From a virus: 29,323 nt of DNA. Location: the IMG/VR virus record IMGVR_UViG_3300045135_000575, positions 1 through 29,323 of that record; one strand, given 5' to 3'. Of the stretch, positions 4,127-27,684 are shown one piece after another (positions within the stretch are counted from its first letter, which is position 1; the number at the start of each line of letters is the position of its first letter). Both the position numbers and the translations under genes were made by a program. The notes below the pieces were generated by a model. The model saw nothing but the letters and a program-made list of their open reading frames with translations, had not been told where the DNA came from and ran no database searches.

Positions 4127-5643
4127 TGTTTAGAATATTTGGACCGCCCGGAACGGGCAAAACCACCACGCTACTAAATATGGTAGACAAAGCCTTGGAA
4201 GCGGGCACCCCACCACAATCTATAGGGTTCTTGGCCTTTACCCGCAAAGCGGCAAATGAGGCAAAGGAACGCGCTGCGGCGCGTTTTCGTTTGGACCCAC
4301 AGAAAGATCTGCAATACTTTCGCACCTTGCACAGCTTTGCACTCTCCCTGTCAGGCATCCGCCCAGAACAAATCATGCAACCTGAGAACTATAAAGAACT
4401 CAGCGAAGCAATGGGCATCAAGCTCGAAACGGGGCGCGTTAATCAGTTAGAAGAAGACGTCCAAGATGCGGTCAAAGCCAGTGACCCCATCCTTGGGCTT
4501 ATCAACCTTGCGAGGCTGAAAAAAACATCTTTGCGCAAGGAGTATAATCTTAGTAGCCTTGAACACGATTGGAATACCGTTAACCATGTAGACCGCTCGC
4601 TGCGCTCCTATAAACACGAAAGCGGCCTCTATGACTTCACCGATATGTTGCAAGGTTTTATTGACAAGGGCCATCAGTTTTGTCCGCGCTTTAACCTGTG
4701 CTTTGTAGATGAAGCTCAAGACTTATCTCCCATGCAGTGGGACATTGCCCATCTGATAGAAGCCAAAACCAAGCAGATGTACTGCGCGGGAGACGATGAC
4801 CAAGCCATATACAAATGGGCAGGGGCCGACGTCGAACACTTCCTTTCATTGGACGGCGGATCAGAAACGCTCAAACAATCCTACCGTATACCCGCAAGCG
4901 TTCACCGCGTGGCAGAAACAATCGCTCGCCGCATTCACCACCGTTACCCCAAGATATACAAGCCTCGCGAAGAAGAAGGCCAATGCCGACGCGTAGCGCA
5001 AGTCGGGGAACTAGACATGAGCGAAGGCTCGTGGCTCATACTCGCACAAGCAGGATACCAACTACAGCCCGTGGCAACAGACCTGCGGTCCTTCGGTTAT
5101 CTGTACGAATATCGCGGATCACGGTCCATTGGTCAAAAACTCAGTGACGCCGTAAACGGGTGGACTGACCTGCAACGCGGTAAGGAAATACCTATCGACA
5201 CCGCCCGAAACATCTATAGCTTTATGTCCACAGGTAAACGCGTGGCACGGGGGTATAAAAAAATTAAAGGCGTTCCAGATGACGAATTGGTTAATATCGA
5301 CGATCTTCAAATATCCCACGGCCTTATAGCCACAAAGGATATGATTTGGTCTGAAGCAATGGACCGCATTGCAGATAAAGACCGCGCCTACGTGACAGCA
5401 TTGCTGCGCCGCGGAGAAAAGTTCAACGGCGTTCCCCGCATTGTAGTGTCCACGATCCACGGTTCAAAAGGTGGAGAGGCGGACAACGTTGTATTGTTTA
5501 CGGACCTGTCCCCCGCTGCGGACAGCACTATGCGAATTGCACCCGACGATGTTCATCGTGTTTTCTACGTCGGCGTGACGCGTACAAGAAAGAACTTGTA
5601 TTTGGTGGAGCCTGAAGACGCGACAAGGAGTTATGATATATGA
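4126..5643 (+). CDS. SF1 DNA helicase (UvrD/Rep-like)
   Basis: This 505-residue helicase has its motifs in canonical order: Walker A GPPGTGKTT (6-14), motif Ia FLAFTRKAANEAKERA (35-50), Walker B FVDEAQDLSPMQWD (193-206), motif III AGDDDQAIYKWAGAD (221-235), motif IV LKQSYRIP (249-256), motif V STIHGSKGGEADNV (about 440-453) and motif VI VFYVGVTRTR (479-488). DEAQD and GDDDQAIY place it in SF1A with UvrD, Rep and PcrA. It is shorter than bacterial UvrD (about 720 residues) because the 1B/2B insertions are reduced. It likely unwinds DNA ahead of the phage polymerase. It starts by overlapping the primase stop and ends with an ATGA overlap into the next gene, deep inside one operon. Confidence 0.93.
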   Translation: MFRIFGPPGTGKTTTLLNMVDKALEAGTPPQSIGFLAFTRKAANEAKERAAARFRLDPQKDLQYFRTLHSFALSLSGIRPEQIMQPENYKELSEAMGIKLETGRVNQLEEDVQDAVKASDPILGLINLARLKKTSLRKEYNLSSLEHDWNTVNHVDRSLRSYKHESGLYDFTDMLQGFIDKGHQFCPRFNLCFVDEAQDLSPMQWDIAHLIEAKTKQMYCAGDDDQAIYKWAGADVEHFLSLDGGSETLKQSYRIPASVHRVAETIARRIHHRYPKIYKPREEEGQCRRVAQVGELDMSEGSWLILAQAGYQLQPVATDLRSFGYLYEYRGSRSIGQKLSDAVNGWTDLQRGKEIPIDTARNIYSFMSTGKRVARGYKKIKGVPDDELVNIDDLQISHGLIATKDMIWSEAMDRIADKDRAYVTALLRRGEKFNGVPRIVVSTIHGSKGGEADNVVLFTDLSPAADSTMRIAPDDVHRVFYVGVTRTRKNLYLVEPEDATRSYDI

Positions 5644-5954
5644 AAGTCTTCGAAGAGAAGTTGGGCCAAGCTATGGCCAAACTCGCTATCGTTGAGAATG
5701 CACGAGCCCGAAAAACTTGGGGAAACCTGAACGCATATAGTGCAGAGAAAAATCAAAAAAACGCATACAAAGGGGGCAGGCCAAAGTCGGATAAGTCATT
5801 AAGACCGCTCAACCCCACCGCTCGCATGGTCGATAAGATGCTAAAAAATGGTTTGAATTGTGTTGAGATTGCGGATGTCTTAGACAAACACCCCGATACT
5901 GTGCGCGATATCAAGTCGCGTTATGAACTACCGCGGGAAGAAAAAAATGACTGA
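5640..5954 (+). CDS. Small HTH DNA-binding protein
   Basis: This is a 104-residue basic protein. Residues about 58-97 (TARMVDKMLKNGLNCVEIADVLDKHPDTVRDIKSR, shown in part) read as a helix-turn-helix of the kind found in resolvase/sigma-4-like domains. A hydrophobic helix is followed by LNCVEIADVLDKHPDTVRD, with ADVLDKHPDTVRDIKSR as turn plus recognition helix. The N-terminal half is Ala/Lys-rich and contains GGRPKS. The ATG overlaps the helicase stop by four bases (ATGA). It may be a transcription or replication regulator, but the target is unknown. Confidence 0.75.
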   Translation: MKVFEEKLGQAMAKLAIVENARARKTWGNLNAYSAEKNQKNAYKGGRPKSDKSLRPLNPTARMVDKMLKNGLNCVEIADVLDKHPDTVRDIKSRYELPREEKND

Positions 5955-6336
5955 GTATTCTAAGCCAAGAGATTGGCATTACGAATGCTCCTGTGGATAT
6001 TCGTGGACAACTTCTTGGAACAGATATTCACAAGACATGTGTGTTAAGTGTGAACTTTATAGTTATCCGTCAGGAAAGAAAAAAATGAAACGGGACGAAA
6101 TTCTTCAAACAGCACAGTCGCTCATTAATGGCGAGCGGGCTTCCGAATACGGTGATGCAAAAGAGAACTTCCAAGATATCGCGGACCTCTGGTCCGTCTT
6201 TCTTGGTCGCCAGATAACGCGCCAAGAGGTTGCGGTCTGCATGATTTTAGTGAAATCAGCACGGCTGATGAAATCAAGCAAAGAGGATTCATGGGTGGAC
6301 ATCTGTGGGTATGCAGCATTAGGAGGAGAGCAATGA
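5947..6336 (+). CDS. Zinc-ribbon plus DUF6378-like protein
   Basis: This is a 129-residue reading from the ATG at 5947, which overlaps the previous stop by 8 bases. A start 24 bases earlier is also open but would lie deeper in the upstream gene. Residues 14-35 contain CSC and CVKC, a probable zinc-binding knuckle. From residue 47 the sequence matches the phage DUF6378 pattern (EILQTAQSLINGERASEYGD, then ENFQDIADLWSVFLGRQITR, then a VKSARLMKSSKEDSWVDICGY ending). DUF6378 proteins in other phages usually begin exactly there, and an in-frame ATG at 6085 has AGGAAAG upstream. Two products, fused and short, are therefore possible. Function is unknown. The gene ends with an ATGA overlap into the next zinc protein. 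Confidence 0.75.
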   Translation: MTEYSKPRDWHYECSCGYSWTTSWNRYSQDMCVKCELYSYPSGKKKMKRDEILQTAQSLINGERASEYGDAKENFQDIADLWSVFLGRQITRQEVAVCMILVKSARLMKSSKEDSWVDICGYAALGGEQ

Positions 6337-6512
6337 ATTGCTGGCACTGCAAAGCAGAATTAATCTGGGGCGGAGATGATGATGCAGAGGATGAGCCTGA
6401 ATATGACATGGTTACCAACCTCTCATGCTCTAACTGCGATACGTTTGTATTAGTTTATTATAAGGAACCAGAAGATGAGCCTACAGATGGCAATGTTCAC
6501 ACCGGAGAATGA
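6333..6512 (+). CDS. Small zinc-ribbon protein
   Basis: This is a 59-residue protein with two CxxC pairs, NCWHC (C3, C6) and SCSNC (C32, C35), around an acidic centre (GGDDDAEDEPEYD). That is a classic single zinc ribbon of small phage proteins. The start at 6333 is chosen over an upstream in-frame ATG at 6291 because AGGAGGAG ends about five bases before it and it gives an ATGA overlap with the upstream stop. The gene overlaps the polymerase start by 38 bases. Function is unknown. Confidence 0.8.
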   Translation: MNCWHCKAELIWGGDDDAEDEPEYDMVTNLSCSNCDTFVLVYYKEPEDEPTDGNVHTGE

Positions 6513-8367
6513 ATGGGTTCCGCCCAGTGAACTCCCTGATCTTACTGGTGCCAAGCGCATTGCAATAGATTTGGAAACCAAAGACCCAAACCTAAAAACC
6601 GCGGGCCCCGGATGGGCCACCGGAGATGGGGAAGTCGTGGGCTACGCTGTTGCCACAGAGAACTGGAGTGGCTACATTCCTATTAGACATTTTGGCGGCG
6701 GGAACATATGCGAAAAACAAGCCAATCGGTGGTTAAAAAAAGTTTTCGAAAGCCCCGCGGAAAAAATCATGCACAATGCTCAATACGACGTTGGATGGGC
6801 ACGGCGCATGGGTTTTACCGTAAATGGCAAAATAATCGACACTATGGTCATAGCATCCCTGCTAGACGAAAACAGGTTCAGCTACACTCTTAACTCCCTG
6901 TCGTTTGACCATCTGGGCAAAGTTAAATCCGAAAAGCAACTGATCGAAGCAGCTAAAGCCTTTGGGGTGGATCCCAAAGCAGAAATGTGGAAGCTGCCCG
7001 CCATGTTTGTCGGACCCTACGCAGAAGCCGACGCGGAACTCGCGCTCGAACTCTACAACTATTTTGCTGTAGAAATTTCTAAAGACGGCCTGTCAAACAT
7101 CGTGGACGTCGAAACACGGCTCCTGCCCTGCTTGGTGGACATGACTTGGCGCGGCGTCAGGGTTGATACAGACAAAGCAGAGCGTACACGCAACGCTCTT
7201 CTCAAGCGCGAGAAAGAAGTTTTAAAAAAGATTAGGTCTACCGTAGGCTTTGACGTCGAGATATGGGCCGCGCAGTCTATAGCCAAAGCCTTCGACGAAG
7301 CATCTCTCCCCTACGAGCGCACAGAAAAAGGTCAGCCATCCTTCACTAAAGGGTTTCTCTCTGACCATCCGTCAGAACTGGCGCAACTTATCGTGCAGGC
7401 CCGCAACCTAAACAAAACCTCTGGCACATTTATCAACACCATCCTCAAGCATTGCCGCTCAGATGGTCGTATCCACGCTCACATAAACCAAATTCGCTCC
7501 GACGATGGCGGCACGGTCAGTGGGCGCATATCCATGAACCACCCTAACCTCCAACAAATCCCTGCACGGGATCCAGAGTTGGGCCCCATGATCCGCAGCC
7601 TGTTCCTACCAGAAGAGGGCGAACAGTGGGCGGCAATTGATTTCTCGCAACAAGAACCGCGGATCTTGGTTCACTACGCGCACTTGTTTGGTGAACAGAG
7701 AGGCCGTCCGCTCAAAGGTGCGAAGGAATTTGTAGACAGCTACAACCAAGATAGCAGCACAGACTTCCACACAATGGTCGCAGAGATGGCGCAAATCCCA
7801 CGCAAACAGGCCAAGACAATTAACCTTGGCATGATGTACGGCATGGGCGTGGCGAAGCTAGCGGACCAACTAGATATTCCTGTAGACGAAGCCAAGGGTC
7901 TGGTTTCCCAGTACCATGACCGTGTGCCATTTGTTAAAGGACTGATGCACGGGGTGATGAACAGACTTAACGAAAAGGACAGCCGCGGGGCGCTGCGCTC
8001 GCTTCTTGGCAGAAAACTACGCTTTCCGTTATGGGAGCCCGACACGTTTGAGATGAACAAAGCACTGCCATATGAGGAAGCCGTGAAAACATATGGCGAC
8101 ACAACACGCTTAAAACGCGCTTACACGTACAAAGCGTTGAACCGTTTAATCCAAGCGTCCGCCGCGGACATGACAAAGCAGTCTATGGTCAACATATACG
8201 AAAGCGGGCGTATCCCTTTGATACAAATCCACGATGAAATCGCCATGTCAGTAACTGACAGAGATGATGCGAAAAAGGTTGCAGAGATGATGCAAAGTGC
8301 TGTACCATTAAGTGTACCTAGCCTGTGTGACGTCGAAGTAGGCCCATCTTGGGGTGAAGCCGTCTGA
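6475..8367 (+). CDS. polA: Family A DNA polymerase with 3'-5' exonuclease
   Basis: This 630-residue replicative polymerase resembles the Klenow part of Pol I. Exo I is AIDLETKDP (D32, E34), Exo II HNAQYDVGWAR (N101, D105) and Exo III YAEAD (Y182, D186). Polymerase motif A is AAIDFSQQEPRIL (D389, E394), motif B is RKQAKTINLGMMYG (K447, Y455) and motif C is IQIHDEIAMS (H586, D587, E588). There is no 5'-3' exonuclease domain. The residue equivalent to E. coli Pol I Phe762 is Leu (L451 in INLG). AAGGA eight bases before 6475 supports this start; ATGs at 6487 and 6493 are alternatives. It closes the replication operon and is followed by a strong terminator. Confidence 0.95.
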   Translation: MSLQMAMFTPENEWVPPSELPDLTGAKRIAIDLETKDPNLKTAGPGWATGDGEVVGYAVATENWSGYIPIRHFGGGNICEKQANRWLKKVFESPAEKIMHNAQYDVGWARRMGFTVNGKIIDTMVIASLLDENRFSYTLNSLSFDHLGKVKSEKQLIEAAKAFGVDPKAEMWKLPAMFVGPYAEADAELALELYNYFAVEISKDGLSNIVDVETRLLPCLVDMTWRGVRVDTDKAERTRNALLKREKEVLKKIRSTVGFDVEIWAAQSIAKAFDEASLPYERTEKGQPSFTKGFLSDHPSELAQLIVQARNLNKTSGTFINTILKHCRSDGRIHAHINQIRSDDGGTVSGRISMNHPNLQQIPARDPELGPMIRSLFLPEEGEQWAAIDFSQQEPRILVHYAHLFGEQRGRPLKGAKEFVDSYNQDSSTDFHTMVAEMAQIPRKQAKTINLGMMYGMGVAKLADQLDIPVDEAKGLVSQYHDRVPFVKGLMHGVMNRLNEKDSRGALRSLLGRKLRFPLWEPDTFEMNKALPYEEAVKTYGDTTRLKRAYTYKALNRLIQASAADMTKQSMVNIYESGRIPLIQIHDEIAMSVTDRDDAKKVAEMMQSAVPLSVPSLCDVEVGPSWGEAV

Positions 8368-8730: not shown

Positions 8731-8970
8731 ATGTCTAGCCAAGACGATTATCTTATAGCGCTCAAAGAAACCAATAAATTTATTGACGATCTAATAGACT
8801 CGGACCTCGACGCAGGGGCCGCGTACACAGGCCTTCTTACCGCCGCAGTCTTCCGCCTACTCAAAGGTTGTACCGATAAACAAGACGCAACAGGCATTAT
8901 CGGTGCCGCAATGGCCTCGGCCAGCGCACATGTAGAGATGGAAGAAGGGATTTTATCAGATATTCACTAA
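8731..8970 (+). CDS. Hypothetical small early protein
   Basis: This is a 79-residue, mostly helical, acidic protein (net negative, with DDLIDSDLDAGAA and HVEMEEGILSDIH). It has an Ala/Gly-rich middle (GIIGAAMASASA) that is too short and polar to be a clear membrane segment. I do not recognise a family. It has its own promoter and a weak GGGG ribosome binding site that could be masked by a hairpin. A separate promoter follows it, so it appears to be a single-gene unit. Confidence 0.65.
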   Translation: MSSQDDYLIALKETNKFIDDLIDSDLDAGAAYTGLLTAAVFRLLKGCTDKQDATGIIGAAMASASAHVEMEEGILSDIH

Positions 8971-9042: not shown

Positions 9043-9603
9043 ATGCGGAATGTTAGAGTACACTTTGAAGGCATCGCCCCTTACAGCCAATCTAAAATGC
9101 ACGAGGAGCCCAAGCTCCCTAAAGAAACTGCCGACGCTTACGAAACAAGAACGTGGCGTTCTAAATGCACCGTCGATAAAGACGGCTACATCATTATCCC
9201 CGCTATGGCTATCAAGTTCAGCCTGTCCGCCGCCGCTAAAAAATTAGGAACACAAATTCCGGGCCGCGGTAAATCAACTTATACAAAATACTTTGAAGCG
9301 GACGTCGTACCGCTCAACGAACCCAAGCTTGATGTCAAACAATCCGAAGTCAGAGGTGATCGCCTCAACGTTAATTCAGATGGCGTCAGGGGATCAGGTA
9401 AGCGCGTCTGGCGTACCTTCCCTGTCGTGGACACGGGATATAAGTCTTACATTGATTTTATGATCATGGATGACACCATTACCAAAGAGGTGTTTGAAGA
9501 TGTATTCTACGCCGCGGGTAACGGTATCGGCATTGGTCGATTCCGCCCAGAAAAAGGCGGAACCAACGGTCGATTCCGCGCCATAAAGTTTGAATGGCAA
9601 TAA
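9043..9603 (+). CDS. Conserved-looking protein with possible RAMP/Cas7-like features
   Basis: This 186-residue protein has AAAGGA upstream of the ATG. It opens with a strand-like VRVHFEGIAPYS. It then has DGYIIIPAMAIKFSLSAAAKKLG (about 48-70, given here in full meaning only as position), which resembles the 'IPgSslkGalr' segment of RAMP/Cas7-type proteins. It ends with a glycine-rich GIGIGRFRPEKGGTNGRF (161-178), reminiscent of RAMP G-loops. A Lys/Arg/Gly-rich stretch at 69-80 could contact nucleic acid. No catalytic His/Lys set is certain. The gene is immediately followed, with no gap, by the 889-bp repeat array. I do not recognise a named family. The RAMP idea is inference from sequence pattern only, and a generic phage RRM-fold or unknown protein is the alternative. 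Confidence 0.6.
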   Translation: MRNVRVHFEGIAPYSQSKMHEEPKLPKETADAYETRTWRSKCTVDKDGYIIIPAMAIKFSLSAAAKKLGTQIPGRGKSTYTKYFEADVVPLNEPKLDVKQSEVRGDRLNVNSDGVRGSGKRVWRTFPVVDTGYKSYIDFMIMDDTITKEVFEDVFYAAGNGIGIGRFRPEKGGTNGRFRAIKFEWQ

Positions 9604-10492
9604 GTTTATCATCGCGTCGCGCCGTACTACGGCGCTTCGCTGCGCTCCGCAATTCGACGCAAGGATTTGTTATGTACAACGCTGCGCTCCGTCCCTCCGC
9701 TCCGCGCTACTCGCTGCGCCTTTCCTCGACGCTACGTTCTACTGCGCGGCTCAACTCAACGCTACGATTTGTTATGTACAACGCAACGAACGCCGCAACT
9801 TGGCTCTGGGCACCTCAACGATTCGCAACGCGACTTCGCGTATTGCGACGCGCCTCTCCGCAATTCAACTCAACGATTTGTTTGTCAATTTATCATCGCA
9901 TCGCGGCTCCTCGTGACGTGTCGCTCCTTGGCTCTTTGCAGCGCAAGGCGTCGCAACGTAACGTAACGCTACTCAGCGATTTGTTTGTTAATTTATCCTC
10001 GCTTCAAGCCGCAGCTCTACTCGACTTCCCGCAGCGTTACGCTTCGCTACTCAACGATTTGTTTATTTCTTTTCGCGCCTCAACTCGCAGCGACTTGGCT
10101 CGCCGCGTCGCGGCACCCCGCATCGCACCTCAACTCAACGATTTGTTTGTTACTCCGCGTCTTGTCGCTTCGCCCCGTATCGCGGCTCCACGCCTCTTTA
10201 CGCAACGCAACGATTTGTTTGTTACTCCGCGAGGCAACGTGGCTTATAGCATCGCTGCGCTCTTCTACTCAACTCAACGATTTGTTTGTTACACCGCTTC
10301 TCCCCGCAGCAATACGCATCTCTACACTGCGCAACGCAACCCTTTGATCATTTTGTTAACGTCAACAAAATGATCGCTAAAATGATTTGTTTATTACTCC
10401 GCTTCTCCCCGCATCGCCCCGCAGCACATCACACTGCTCCGCGCCGATCATCAACGCAACGCAACGAACTGAAACTTAACTAGGAAAAACAA
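9604..10492. repeat. 889-bp non-coding array of nine degenerate repeats
   Basis: The core GATTTGTT occurs at 9664, 9766, 9875, 9978, 10056, 10140, 10212, 10279 and 10384. It is usually preceded by two CTCAA/CGCAA-C units and followed by a second conserved block. The typical repeat is CAACGATTTGTTTGTTA plus about ten bases each side, roughly 28 nt. Intervals are 102, 109, 103, 78, 84, 72, 67 and 105 bases. Neighbouring copies match best: 1-2 share GATTTGTTATGTACAACGC, 3-4 share AATTTATCNTCGC, 6-7 share GATTTGTTTGTTACTCCGC, and 8-9 share CCGCTTCTCCCCGCA. Some inter-copy stretches contain short near-perfect palindromes (9619-9635, 9823-9848, 10033-10043, 10102-10114, 10346-10375). Long plus-strand frames are open here by composition, but the intervals are not multiples of three and the repeat is read in different frames. 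I therefore treat the region as non-coding. Confidence 0.85.
10346..10375. repeat. 30-bp near-perfect palindrome inside the array
   Basis: GATCATTTTGTTAAC is followed directly by GTCAACAAAATGATC. The two 15-base arms match at 14 positions with no spacer. The AT-rich arms stand out from the GC-rich array. It could be a dimer operator (a winged-helix gene starts 118 bases downstream), a cruciform or origin element, or an RNA hairpin. Confidence 0.8.
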
Positions 10493-10897
10493 ATGTTCAA
10501 ACGTTCAAAAATAACTTTGGATATGTGCGACTTATTCCGTAATGCAAACGGACACCTAAGCTACGACACAATCCAATCACACTTTGGCAAAACAATAAAT
10601 GAACTGCGCCCAACAATCCTCGCAGCCAGACGATATCTCGAAAGAGACGAAAGCGTCGTCTTCGAAAATATCAGAGGCGAAGGATACAAACGCCTCGATG
10701 ATAGCGAAAAAGTGGACAGCCTTAAAACGTTCACACGGCGCATCCGACGGACCGCCAATAACGGCCAGCTACGGGCCCATACCGTCGAAAAACGTGAGGA
10801 ACTGTCCAACGATGACAGACTACGCCTCACGATCCGCGAAACGGCACTCTTTGCCATCCAATCTCAACTCCAAGAAATCAATGATAAGGACAGGTGA
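10493..10897 (+). CDS. Winged-helix DNA-binding protein
   Basis: This is a 134-residue protein. Residues about 20-68 read LSYDTIQSHFGKTINELRPT, then ILAARRYLERDESVVFENIRG and EGYKRL. This is the shape of an OmpR-type winged helix: helix, turn, recognition helix, then the wing strand ending in I-R-G-x-G-Y. The C-terminal half is charged and helical (KTFTRRIRRT, then REELSNDDRLRLTIRET), perhaps for dimerisation. AGGAAAAAC precedes the ATG. It follows the repeat array and its palindrome directly, so those repeats are candidate binding sites (inference). Its stop overlaps the next start (TGATG). Confidence 0.72.
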   Translation: MFKRSKITLDMCDLFRNANGHLSYDTIQSHFGKTINELRPTILAARRYLERDESVVFENIRGEGYKRLDDSEKVDSLKTFTRRIRRTANNGQLRAHTVEKREELSNDDRLRLTIRETALFAIQSQLQEINDKDR

Positions 10898-12428: not shown

Positions 12429-13076
12429 ATGGCAAAAACACCCCCAATTCCGAAGGGTTTGGTGTTACGGGCAAAGAAAAAACCCACCGGAAAGCGTTGG
12501 ACAAAACAAAATCCGGATGAATTGAGAGGCCGCAAGAGATTGCATGAAAACTCGCCTCTGACCCGTATGCAAGAGAAGTTTGTAAAAGAACTGGTTTCCA
12601 ACGATGGAACCATCACAATGTCAGAAGCCGCAGAACGAGCGGGCTATACAAAAAAGTCCGCTCCGGTTCGTGCGTCTCAAATGACAAATCCCCATATCAG
12701 CCCACACGTTTGCGCAGCGATAAAAAGATATCGTGATGAGCTAGATGAAAAGTTTGGCATAACCTATCAAAGACACGTGCGAGACCTACAGCGCATTCGA
12801 GACCTAGCTATTGAAAACGGCGCGTACAGTGCCGCAGTGCAGGCAGAATATAGGCGAGGTCAAGCGCAGGGCGATATCTACGTCAGTAAGTCGGAAATCC
12901 GTCACGGCAGCATTGATAGTATGAGCCGCGAGGATGTTCAAAAAGCTTTGGATGAGTTGAAGCAAACATATGGCGCAATTGACATTACCCCAGACGAAGA
13001 TGGAAGCGGGGCTTTATCAGCAATTGAAGGCAGCTACGAAGAGATCGACGCGGAATCTGATTCTTACGCGGATTGA
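12429..13076 (+). CDS. terS: Terminase small subunit
   Basis: This is a 215-residue protein. After a basic N-terminus (KGLVLRAKKKPTGKRWTKQ), residues about 43-100 read LTRMQEKFVKELVSNDGT, MSEAAERAGYTKKSAPVRAS and HISPHVCAAIKRYRDEL. This matches the Terminase_2 small-subunit pattern, in which the first helices form the DNA-binding HTH. The middle is helical (RHVRDLQRIRDLAIE and GAYSAAVQAEYRRGQAQG) as expected for ring oligomerisation. The C-terminus is acidic (EEIDAESDSYAD) and may contact the large subunit. The large subunit is 4 kb downstream rather than adjacent, which is unusual. The gene overlaps the nuclease gene. Confidence 0.83.
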   Translation: MAKTPPIPKGLVLRAKKKPTGKRWTKQNPDELRGRKRLHENSPLTRMQEKFVKELVSNDGTITMSEAAERAGYTKKSAPVRASQMTNPHISPHVCAAIKRYRDELDEKFGITYQRHVRDLQRIRDLAIENGAYSAAVQAEYRRGQAQGDIYVSKSEIRHGSIDSMSREDVQKALDELKQTYGAIDITPDEDGSGALSAIEGSYEEIDAESDSYAD

Positions 13077-13398
13077 AAACTGGGCAAGCCAAGGCATTCC
13101 TGACCTTCTCATTTGTGATGAGCGCGGAAAGTTTCACTTTGTTGAATTAAAGTTTTGTAAGGCTAACGCTGTTAACCTTAGCCCGCATCAAGTTGCATGG
13201 CATGTCCGCCATAAGCATTCATCATGCTGGACCTTGATCAAAAAACAAAACAAGCCCGACAGTACCCCATACCTATTTCTCTATCATGCGGATCAAGCAA
13301 TGGACCTAAAGGCGGACGGTTTGAAAACTGAGCCCCGATTAGCGCACGAAAAGAAATTTATCTGGGAGGAAGTTTTCAGCTTGATATGTCCTATTTAA
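13000..13398 (+). CDS. VRR-NUC (PD-(D/E)XK) nuclease
   Basis: This is a 132-residue reading from ATG 13000; an ATG at 12970 is also open. The core is QGIPDLLICDERGKFHFVEL followed by K, the PD...(E)xK catalytic signature of VRR-NUC nucleases (GIPD then VELK), and then SPHQVAWHVRH. Small stand-alone VRR-NUC proteins in phages are thought to cut branched or flapped DNA. The N-terminus overlaps terS by at least 77 bases, and neither candidate start has a strong ribosome binding site. Lying between the terminase genes, it may resolve replication intermediates before packaging (inference). Confidence 0.85.
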   Translation: MEAGLYQQLKAATKRSTRNLILTRIENWASQGIPDLLICDERGKFHFVELKFCKANAVNLSPHQVAWHVRHKHSSCWTLIKKQNKPDSTPYLFLYHADQAMDLKADGLKTEPRLAHEKKFIWEEVFSLICPI

Positions 13399-27149: not shown

Positions 27150-27180
27150 AAAAATTACTGTATGCTCAAGTTATCCCTGA

Positions 27181-27199
27181 CAAACACACGGTGTGTTTG
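27181..27199. repeat. Inverted repeat upstream of 27223 gene
   Basis: CAAACACA and TGTGTTTG surround CGG, forming an eight-base stem with a three-base loop. It sits between the capsid terminator and the next gene's ribosome site (CAGGAG). It could be an operator or a leader hairpin; no convincing promoter is visible between them. Confidence 0.55.
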
Positions 27200-27222
27200 A
27201 CTAACCCAGACAGGAGATTAAC

Positions 27223-27684
27223 ATGGGTACTACGACTTTTTCTGGTCCAATCAAGGCCGGGACCATCCGAAACACCACAGGCACTACACTTGGAACTGAC
27301 GTTGCAAACGTTGGTCAAGTAGTCATGTCGCAAACGTTTGCGGCGGATTTGTCAAACGGTGCAATTGCTGCCGATACTACAAACGTGGTTATTCCAGCAA
27401 ACTCACAGATTATTGATTGTGTGATTGATGTTATTACTGCGGCAAGCGGAGCAACCAACTTGAGCGTTGGTGACACTGTAGGTGGCGCGACATCTATCCT
27501 TAACACCTTTGCTATTGGAACTACTGCGGGCCGTAAATACCCTACTACGCAAGCGGGAGCCGCATTAGCGTGGGAGGATACGGGAACAGCGGACATTCGT
27601 CTGACCGTTACTGCTTCCGCGGCAACTACTGCGGGTGAAGTTCGGGTTACAATTCTGTACGCTCAAAACAACAATCTTGGATAA
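27223..27684 (+). CDS. Beta-rich probable virion surface protein
   Basis: This is a 153-residue protein, Ala/Thr/Gly/Val-rich and low in charge (TFSGPIKAGTIRNTTGTTL, IPANSQIIDCVIDVITAASG, then ADIRLTVTASAATTAGEVRV). Its strand-turn pattern fits a beta-sandwich or jelly-roll protein on the head surface, or a small fibre. It lies behind the capsid gene and is followed at 9 bases by another small beta-rich protein, suggesting a pair. It has no clear family. Confidence 0.62.
   Translation: MGTTTFSGPIKAGTIRNTTGTTLGTDVANVGQVVMSQTFAADLSNGAIAADTTNVVIPANSQIIDCVIDVITAASGATNLSVGDTVGGATSILNTFAIGTTAGRKYPTTQAGAALAWEDTGTADIRLTVTASAATTAGEVRVTILYAQNNNLG

Follow-up and report, generated by a model that had tools for sequence, protein, structure and literature searches.

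A probable VIPR system built on C-K-C-N-N pentamers in a marine phage genome

Between positions 9043 and 10897 of a 29,323-base IMG/VR sequence (hereafter the window, meaning the whole stretch of DNA that was analysed) lies what is very probably a VIPR system of a marine phage: about ten vrRNAs, carrying guides that would read the DNA of rival mobile elements with one base skipped between successive dinucleotides. The case is built by sequence comparison, from the homology of one protein to Vipr, a pentamer code in the adjoining array, an invariant tail, the conservation of a gene–array–gene order, and one-nucleotide-skip matches to genes of SAR116 elements.

VIPR (Viral Interference Programmable Repeat) is presented in a 2026 preprint (PMC13142463) as a phage system and an early relative of CRISPR. 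As set out there, it comprises a small phage RAMP protein and vrRNAs of 9–16 YNNGG pentamers (GGY constant, NN variable) followed by a 3′ tail; an accessory gene is often present. The NN letters recognize double-stranded DNA, with one base, usually the codon wobble, skipped between dinucleotides. According to the same source, GGY/NN 'or a related consensus (fig. S17)' is used by all seven VIPR types; its authors also cite IMG/VR, the collection from which the window comes (PMC13142463). The code has been shown experimentally for one type.

Organization of the array

The array occupies 9604–10492, where the initial annotation had placed it, and nine cores on the + strand span 9663–10396 at the claimed spacing of 67–109 nt. 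Core starts (N-GATTTG) fall at 9663, 9765, 9874, 9977, 10055, 10139, 10211, 10278 and 10383, giving core-to-core spacings of 102, 109, 103, 78, 84, 72, 67 and 105. The nine cores vary around the consensus GATTTGTTTGTTA. The 17-mer that had been offered as the core recurs exactly in 3 copies only, and in 7 when up to three mismatches are allowed (0.18 expected by chance); copies 1 and 2 carry the variant GATTTGTTATGTA. The CTCAAC and CGCAAC blocks reported to flank the cores are real.

The DNA between the cores is made of pentanucleotides of the form C-K-C-N-N, that is, CGC or CTC followed by two free letters. Measured against dinucleotide shuffles, autocorrelation in the window is elevated at lag 5 (z = 11.7), lag 10 (z = 7.6) and lag 15 (z = 8.1); five relatives give lag-5 values of z = 11.5–13.7, with peaks at 10 and 15. 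It is this 5-nt periodicity that makes unit lengths cluster in steps of five, at 67, 72, 77, 82, 87, 92 and 102. When pentamers were parsed backwards from each core, position 1 was C in 77% of cases, position 2 was G in 48% or T in 38%, position 3 was C in 77%, and positions 4 and 5 were nearly free (n = 1794). No CKCNN tract was found elsewhere in the window.

Each unit consists of (CKCNN)n and then an invariant tail, CGATTTGTTTGTTA and variants (Table 1). Beyond the last core there is a tenth tract, missed by the initial annotation, which ends in a different tail, CGAACTGAAAC; this distinct last tail is kept in close relatives. At the other end, the first tract begins right at the stop codon of the 9043–9603 gene. 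Nearest the tail, CTCAA or CGCAA usually fills the last two pentamer positions; these may belong to a constant handle and not to the guide. The tail itself is predicted to form a 5-bp hairpin only (−1.6 kcal/mol), not the conserved secondary structure claimed for the SUSP1 clade (PMC13142463), a structure that thus does not define all VIPRs. Between orthologous units, substitution rates of the NN letters and of scaffold letters 1–2 are about equal, so that short-term evolution does not separate NN from scaffold and this substitution test is not diagnostic.

The roles of the two parts are the reverse of those first assigned. The initial annotation took the core as the functional repeat and the remainder as spacer, and missed the pentamer code: the core forms the invariant 3′ tail of a guide RNA, whose programmable part is the 'spacer'. 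Its broader view of the array as functional, non-coding and RNA-related stands; among the options it listed, an RNA-processing substrate pointed in the right direction, and a replication origin or protein-binding array found no support. It was also correct that the array does not encode a repeat protein: intervals and unit lengths are not multiples of three, and long open frames occur in all three + phases because a CKCNN tandem cannot hold a stop codon in any + frame. The 'palindromic spacers' reduce to a single strong inverted repeat at 10346–10375 (near-perfect, 15+15 nt, GATCATTTTGTTAAC/GTCAACAAAATGATC), which interrupts the degenerate ninth unit just before its tail; palindromes are not the organizing principle of the array. 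This inverted repeat was not seen in the relatives' arrays compared and is possibly a small insertion; the unit that holds it, unit 8, is possibly inactive.

General searches returned nothing for the array: there was no match in a DNA homology search of the phage collection, none from the tRNA search, none in Rfam and none from PADLOC. The sole Rfam match in the window is Mu-gpT-DE RNA at 27175–27225 (56.1 bits), which closely follows the gene for the major head protein.

Table 1. Features of the vipr–array–accessory region of the window; the vrRNA units are putative, and NN lists the variable dinucleotides of a guide in order.
Feature	Position	Strand	Basis
vipr gene, 186-aa Vipr-family RAMP protein with C-terminal glycine-rich loop GIGIGRFRPEKGGTNGRF	9043..9603	+	
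vrRNA unit 0; NN: AT GT GC AC GG TT TG TC AA GA AA; tail GGATTTGTTATGTAC	9604..9677	+	pentamer parse
vrRNA unit 1; NN: TG TC CC CG CG TA GC GC TC GA ...; tail CGATTTGTTATGTAC	9678..9779	+	pentamer parse
vrRNA unit 2; guide frame shifts two bases near start; tail CGATTTGTTTGTCA	9780..9887	+	pentamer parse
vrRNA unit 3; tail CGATTTGTTTGTTA	9888..9990	+	pentamer parse
vrRNA unit 4; tail CGATTTGTTTATTT	9991..10068	+	pentamer parse
vrRNA unit 5; tail CGATTTGTTTGTTA	10069..10152	+	pentamer parse
vrRNA unit 6; tail CGATTTGTTTGTTA	10153..10224	+	pentamer parse
vrRNA unit 7; NN: TC GA AA GG AT AT TG TC TA; tail CGATTTGTTTGTTA	10225..10291	+	pentamer parse
Degenerate unit 8; CKCNN tract broken by 30-nt palindrome (10346-10375); tail TGATTTGTTTATTA	10292..10396	+	
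Unit 9; final CKCNN tract; ends shortly before next gene in a different tail CGAACTGAAACTTA	10397..10478	+	
Candidate vipr-accessory gene, 134 aa, winged-helix-like N-terminal domain	10493..10897	+	

The flanking proteins and the conservation of the module

A first profile of the 9043 family, run against all PDB sequences, found one relevant entry, 36pp, 'SUSP1 Vipr protein' (E = 0.0056). With a profile of 10 relatives that took in the more distant homologues from L174, L176 and DSL-LC04, 36pp was recovered at E = 1e-8 and was the sole match below 1. The AlphaFold2 model of the protein is of low confidence (pLDDT 63.5); a Foldseek search with it gave CRISPR RAMP subunits and complexes as best matches (lowest E = 2.6e-3, probability 0.95). 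Judged by these comparisons, the 9043–9603 protein is a Vipr homologue with a predicted RAMP-like fold. For the protein encoded at 10493–10897 the model is better (pLDDT 78.7), and its best Foldseek matches, weak ones (E ≥ 0.06), are mostly winged-helix DNA-binding proteins; the product is a candidate accessory protein, probably winged-helix-like at its N terminus.

The main genes of the region are co-oriented: a polymerase (6475–8367) and a small gene (8731–8970) precede the 9043–9603 gene and the array, and downstream of 10493–10897 the small (12429) and large (17072) terminase subunits follow in the same direction. The small terminase subunit gene (12429–13076) overlaps a VRR-nuclease-like gene (12970–13398) by 107 bases in another frame, and this pair of neighbours recurs in many relatives.

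IMG/VR was scanned with the core and with the proteins encoded on either side of the array, a search of relatives that the initial annotation had proposed. More than 20 contigs with arrays were recovered. Wherever a contig spans the array, a 9043 homologue precedes it, with Vipr identity as low as 63–67%, and a 10493 homologue always follows; the arrays comprise about 4 to 11 units. Since more than 10 other metagenome contigs show this anatomy between the two genes, an assembly artefact can be dismissed. L007 is one of several contigs that break off within the array, an expected effect of repeats, and others include one flank.

One relative, L008, whose polymerase is 91% identical, retains the flanking genes but has none of the three parts between them (9043 gene, array, 10493 gene); this joint loss indicates that the three behave as one module. 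The empty site of the vipr–array–accessory module lies at L008 4482–6027.

Two distant members of the clade (Vipr identity 59% and 38%) retain CGC/CTC-NN, although their tails differ. L174, a 63-kb contig, has a CKCNN array with tail CAACGAAAGGTTATGTCC at 5560–6040, between Vipr (59% identity) and a homologue of the accessory gene. L176 has four single CGCNN tracts ending in CAACGTTTTTT (4591–4650, 4801–4870, 4910–4975 and 5571–5630), which flank a Vipr gene 38% identical to that of the window; no recognizable accessory homologue lies beside that gene.

A deposited phage genome, DSL-LC04 (OR003939), served as a positive control. At ∼22.4–23.4 kb it has a Vipr homologue (29% identity), and its DNA polymerase is related to that of the window; it differs in having YNNGG repeats (TGCGG TTCGG TGTGG TTAGG etc., just upstream of the Vipr gene) and no CKC array, and in a next gene with no search link to 10493. 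DSL-LC04 holds a VIPR locus. The YNNGG repeats are unannotated (4511–4640 of L177, the DSL-LC04 sequence), and the Vipr homologue is annotated as an HTH regulator.

Matches of the guides in SAR116 elements

The published one-nucleotide-skip rule was used as a prediction, and guides were scanned as NNxNNx. The unit 0 guide (AT GT GC AC GG TT TG TC), which is common to at least 13 contigs, gave four matches in a scan of all IMG/VR, one of them in a tyrosine integrase (contig L178), antisense, with the skipped base at the codon wobble. Extended by one dinucleotide and scanned against 84,980 genomes, it gave 11 matches, about the estimated chance number, one of which lies in the same integrase family (81% identical) in the SAR116 alphaproteobacterium L327. 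Since the genome matches are at about the level of chance, the support from unit 0 consists of the two independent matches in one integrase family together with the convergence of other guides. Once the leading TT is counted, the window guide matches over 19 contiguous bases, and a relative's version over as many as 23.

The SAR116 mobile element is present in L178 (13 kb) and in L395 (G001 contig 44). Its genes encode the integrase, a VapE/DUF5906-type replication protein, a divergent family A polymerase and a resolvase; the element polymerase was found in 7 of 61 SAR116 genomes. No capsid gene was recognized in the 13-kb contig, and the targeted element may represent a satellite, an island or part of a prophage.

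Guides of other contigs of this phage family that had not been used in finding the element loci match there too. Two fall in the polymerase of the same element, L120.1 at IHDALL and L147.3 at TFLNWPMQA, the latter with 20/20 bases in four SAR116 genomes; L099.4, of which several contigs carry versions, and L120.3 match a small HGG-STGP gene. Over the 61 SAR116 genomes, 12 sites fit L099.4 and none its reversed pattern; several of the 12 adjoin an integrase or the element polymerase. Best scores on the element loci are at most 14.2 at skips 0, 2 and 3 and at most 16.2 for 1332 shuffled guides; real guides at skip 1 reach 23. The matches to the integrase and HNH genes and that of L120.1 are antisense, those of L147.3 and L099.4 sense. 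The control loci were not neutral (some had been picked with the unit 0 pattern, and L405 is an integrase island matched by L099.4 and L120.3); reliance was placed instead on shuffled guides, reversed patterns and other skip lengths.

Within the window, support for the one-nucleotide-skip rule is strong for unit 0 and less so for units 1 and 7, the targets of which are conserved protein motifs common to many unrelated elements. Unit 1 fits C-terminal motifs of two SAR116 integrases (17/20); over IMG/VR, 7 of its 32 matches are wobble-skipped and antisense, split between integrase-like and terminase-like proteins. Decoded antisense, unit 7 spells the HNH endonuclease motif YDHIIPFSE(GG), and it matches 18/18 in the HNH gene of a phage contig, L236. 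Among 80 IMG/VR matches examined for this unit, 21 are antisense and in frame, mostly in HNH-like proteins; some 40 of the 80 are copies of one enterobacterial gene and were taken as chance. In SAR116 genomes unit 7 has 9 sites, against 2 for the reversed pattern.

No target was found for units 2–6, 8 and 9; in the 61 SAR116 genomes, units 3 and 5 did no better than reversed patterns. Nor were targets found among closely related phages, where real and shuffled guides score alike. Two 25-base guide matches among these phages proved to be a low-complexity artefact of one mis-framed unit, and the skip-3 matches in that scan are self-matches to other arrays, which are not evidence. All guides were also decoded as peptides, but pieces of 10–15 residues give scores too low for use against protein families.

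Mechanism, alternatives and meaning

If the locus works as a VIPR, the + strand of the array would be transcribed and yield about ten vrRNAs, each of roughly 9–19 C-K-C-N-N pentamers followed by the invariant 3′ tail CGAUUUGUUUGUUAC or a variant. Vipr monomers would bind side by side on the RNA, gripping the CKC triplets and leaving each NN exposed; the dinucleotides would then pair with double-stranded DNA at matching dinucleotides one base apart, the skipped base in genes being the codon wobble. Bound Vipr would block transcription of the target (integrase, replication and other element genes), possibly helped by the winged-helix accessory protein. These steps, from transcription and processing through RNP formation to DNA binding and silencing, are inferred from the published VIPR, as are the accessory protein's role and the gain for the phage. 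The rival mobile elements would be those in the phage's host, which the targets suggest is most likely a SAR116 alphaproteobacterium.

The resemblance to the type II VIPR of SUSP1 and Pseudomonas fulva is extensive: a small Vipr RAMP protein with an adjoining vrRNA array and an invariant 3′ tail; pentamer tracts with a constant triplet and free NN; targets read with a 1-nt skip in rival mobile elements, the wobble being skipped; and, as a candidate here, an accessory gene with a predicted DNA-binding fold (from weak model matches in the window). The two differ in the triplet, which is C-K-C here and G-G-Y there; in the tail, which is short and weakly folding here whereas there it is structured or pseudoknotted; and in the number of vrRNAs, about ten in direct succession between the vipr and accessory genes here and four there. 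The window Vipr is only 29% identical to the nearest GGY-code homologue found.

Given a constant triplet unlike the published one, the mechanics could differ, and the transcripts could be VIPR-related RAMP RNAs in which CKC denotes another reading rule or target (for example RNA as the target, or a skip of another length). On the element loci, however, strong matches occur at skip 1 only, and matches on both gene strands favour DNA over mRNA as the target; we regard a different rule as improbable. A further reader of triplets at pentamer intervals, (G/U)AGNN, is the TRAP attenuation protein; its fold is unrelated and the letters between its triplets are uninformative. Here, in contrast, the NN letters match DNA targets.

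The remaining readings are less probable still. Directly repeated cores of strand-asymmetric composition, with a DNA polymerase upstream and a winged-helix-like protein downstream, are what might be expected of a protein-binding or replication-origin element, its iterons bound by the 9043 or the 10493 protein. Yet sites repeated every 5 nt would alternate between helix faces, letters 4–5 of the pentamer are free, unlike those of iterons, the 9043 gene is a RAMP homologue, the guides have targets, and the module is lost in a close relative that keeps the polymerase; we think this very unlikely. The least credible is a degenerate CRISPR array with palindromic spacers. A constant element does alternate with variable stretches beside a RAMP protein, and the window's Vipr shares a predicted fold and a glycine-rich loop with CRISPR RAMPs (type VII Cas7, Csm3), but the repeats are non-uniform, the intervals run from 67 to 109 nt, and the interval DNA is pentamer-periodic. 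In contrast to the systems of those RAMPs, there is no CRISPR array here, genes for adaptation or processing are missing (a scan of the window proteins gave no cas1/cas2-like gene), and the guide is non-contiguous: a contiguous (skip 0) reading finds nothing on the element loci where skip 1 does.

We therefore keep to a VIPR system as the reading of the locus, on the evidence of code, homology and targets, in which a marine phage family would use the VIPR code with different scaffold letters. Tentatively, and with slightly less than even confidence, we suggest that the CKC/NN clade is an unpublished scaffold variant, with a CKC backbone, the same 1-nt-skip DNA code and natural targets in SAR116 elements; CKC/NN may already be listed in fig. 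S17 of the preprint (PMC13142463). If it is such a variant, non-contiguous guides have at least two 'alphabets'. As GGY and CKC scaffolds are accompanied by homologous Viprs, in DSL-LC04 and in the window family respectively, their comparison should reveal the residues that read the triplet. The natural targets recovered by whole-collection scans lend independent sequence support to the 1-nt-skip rule, the skipped wobble included, and the guides suggest both the competing elements and the likely host of an uncultured phage.
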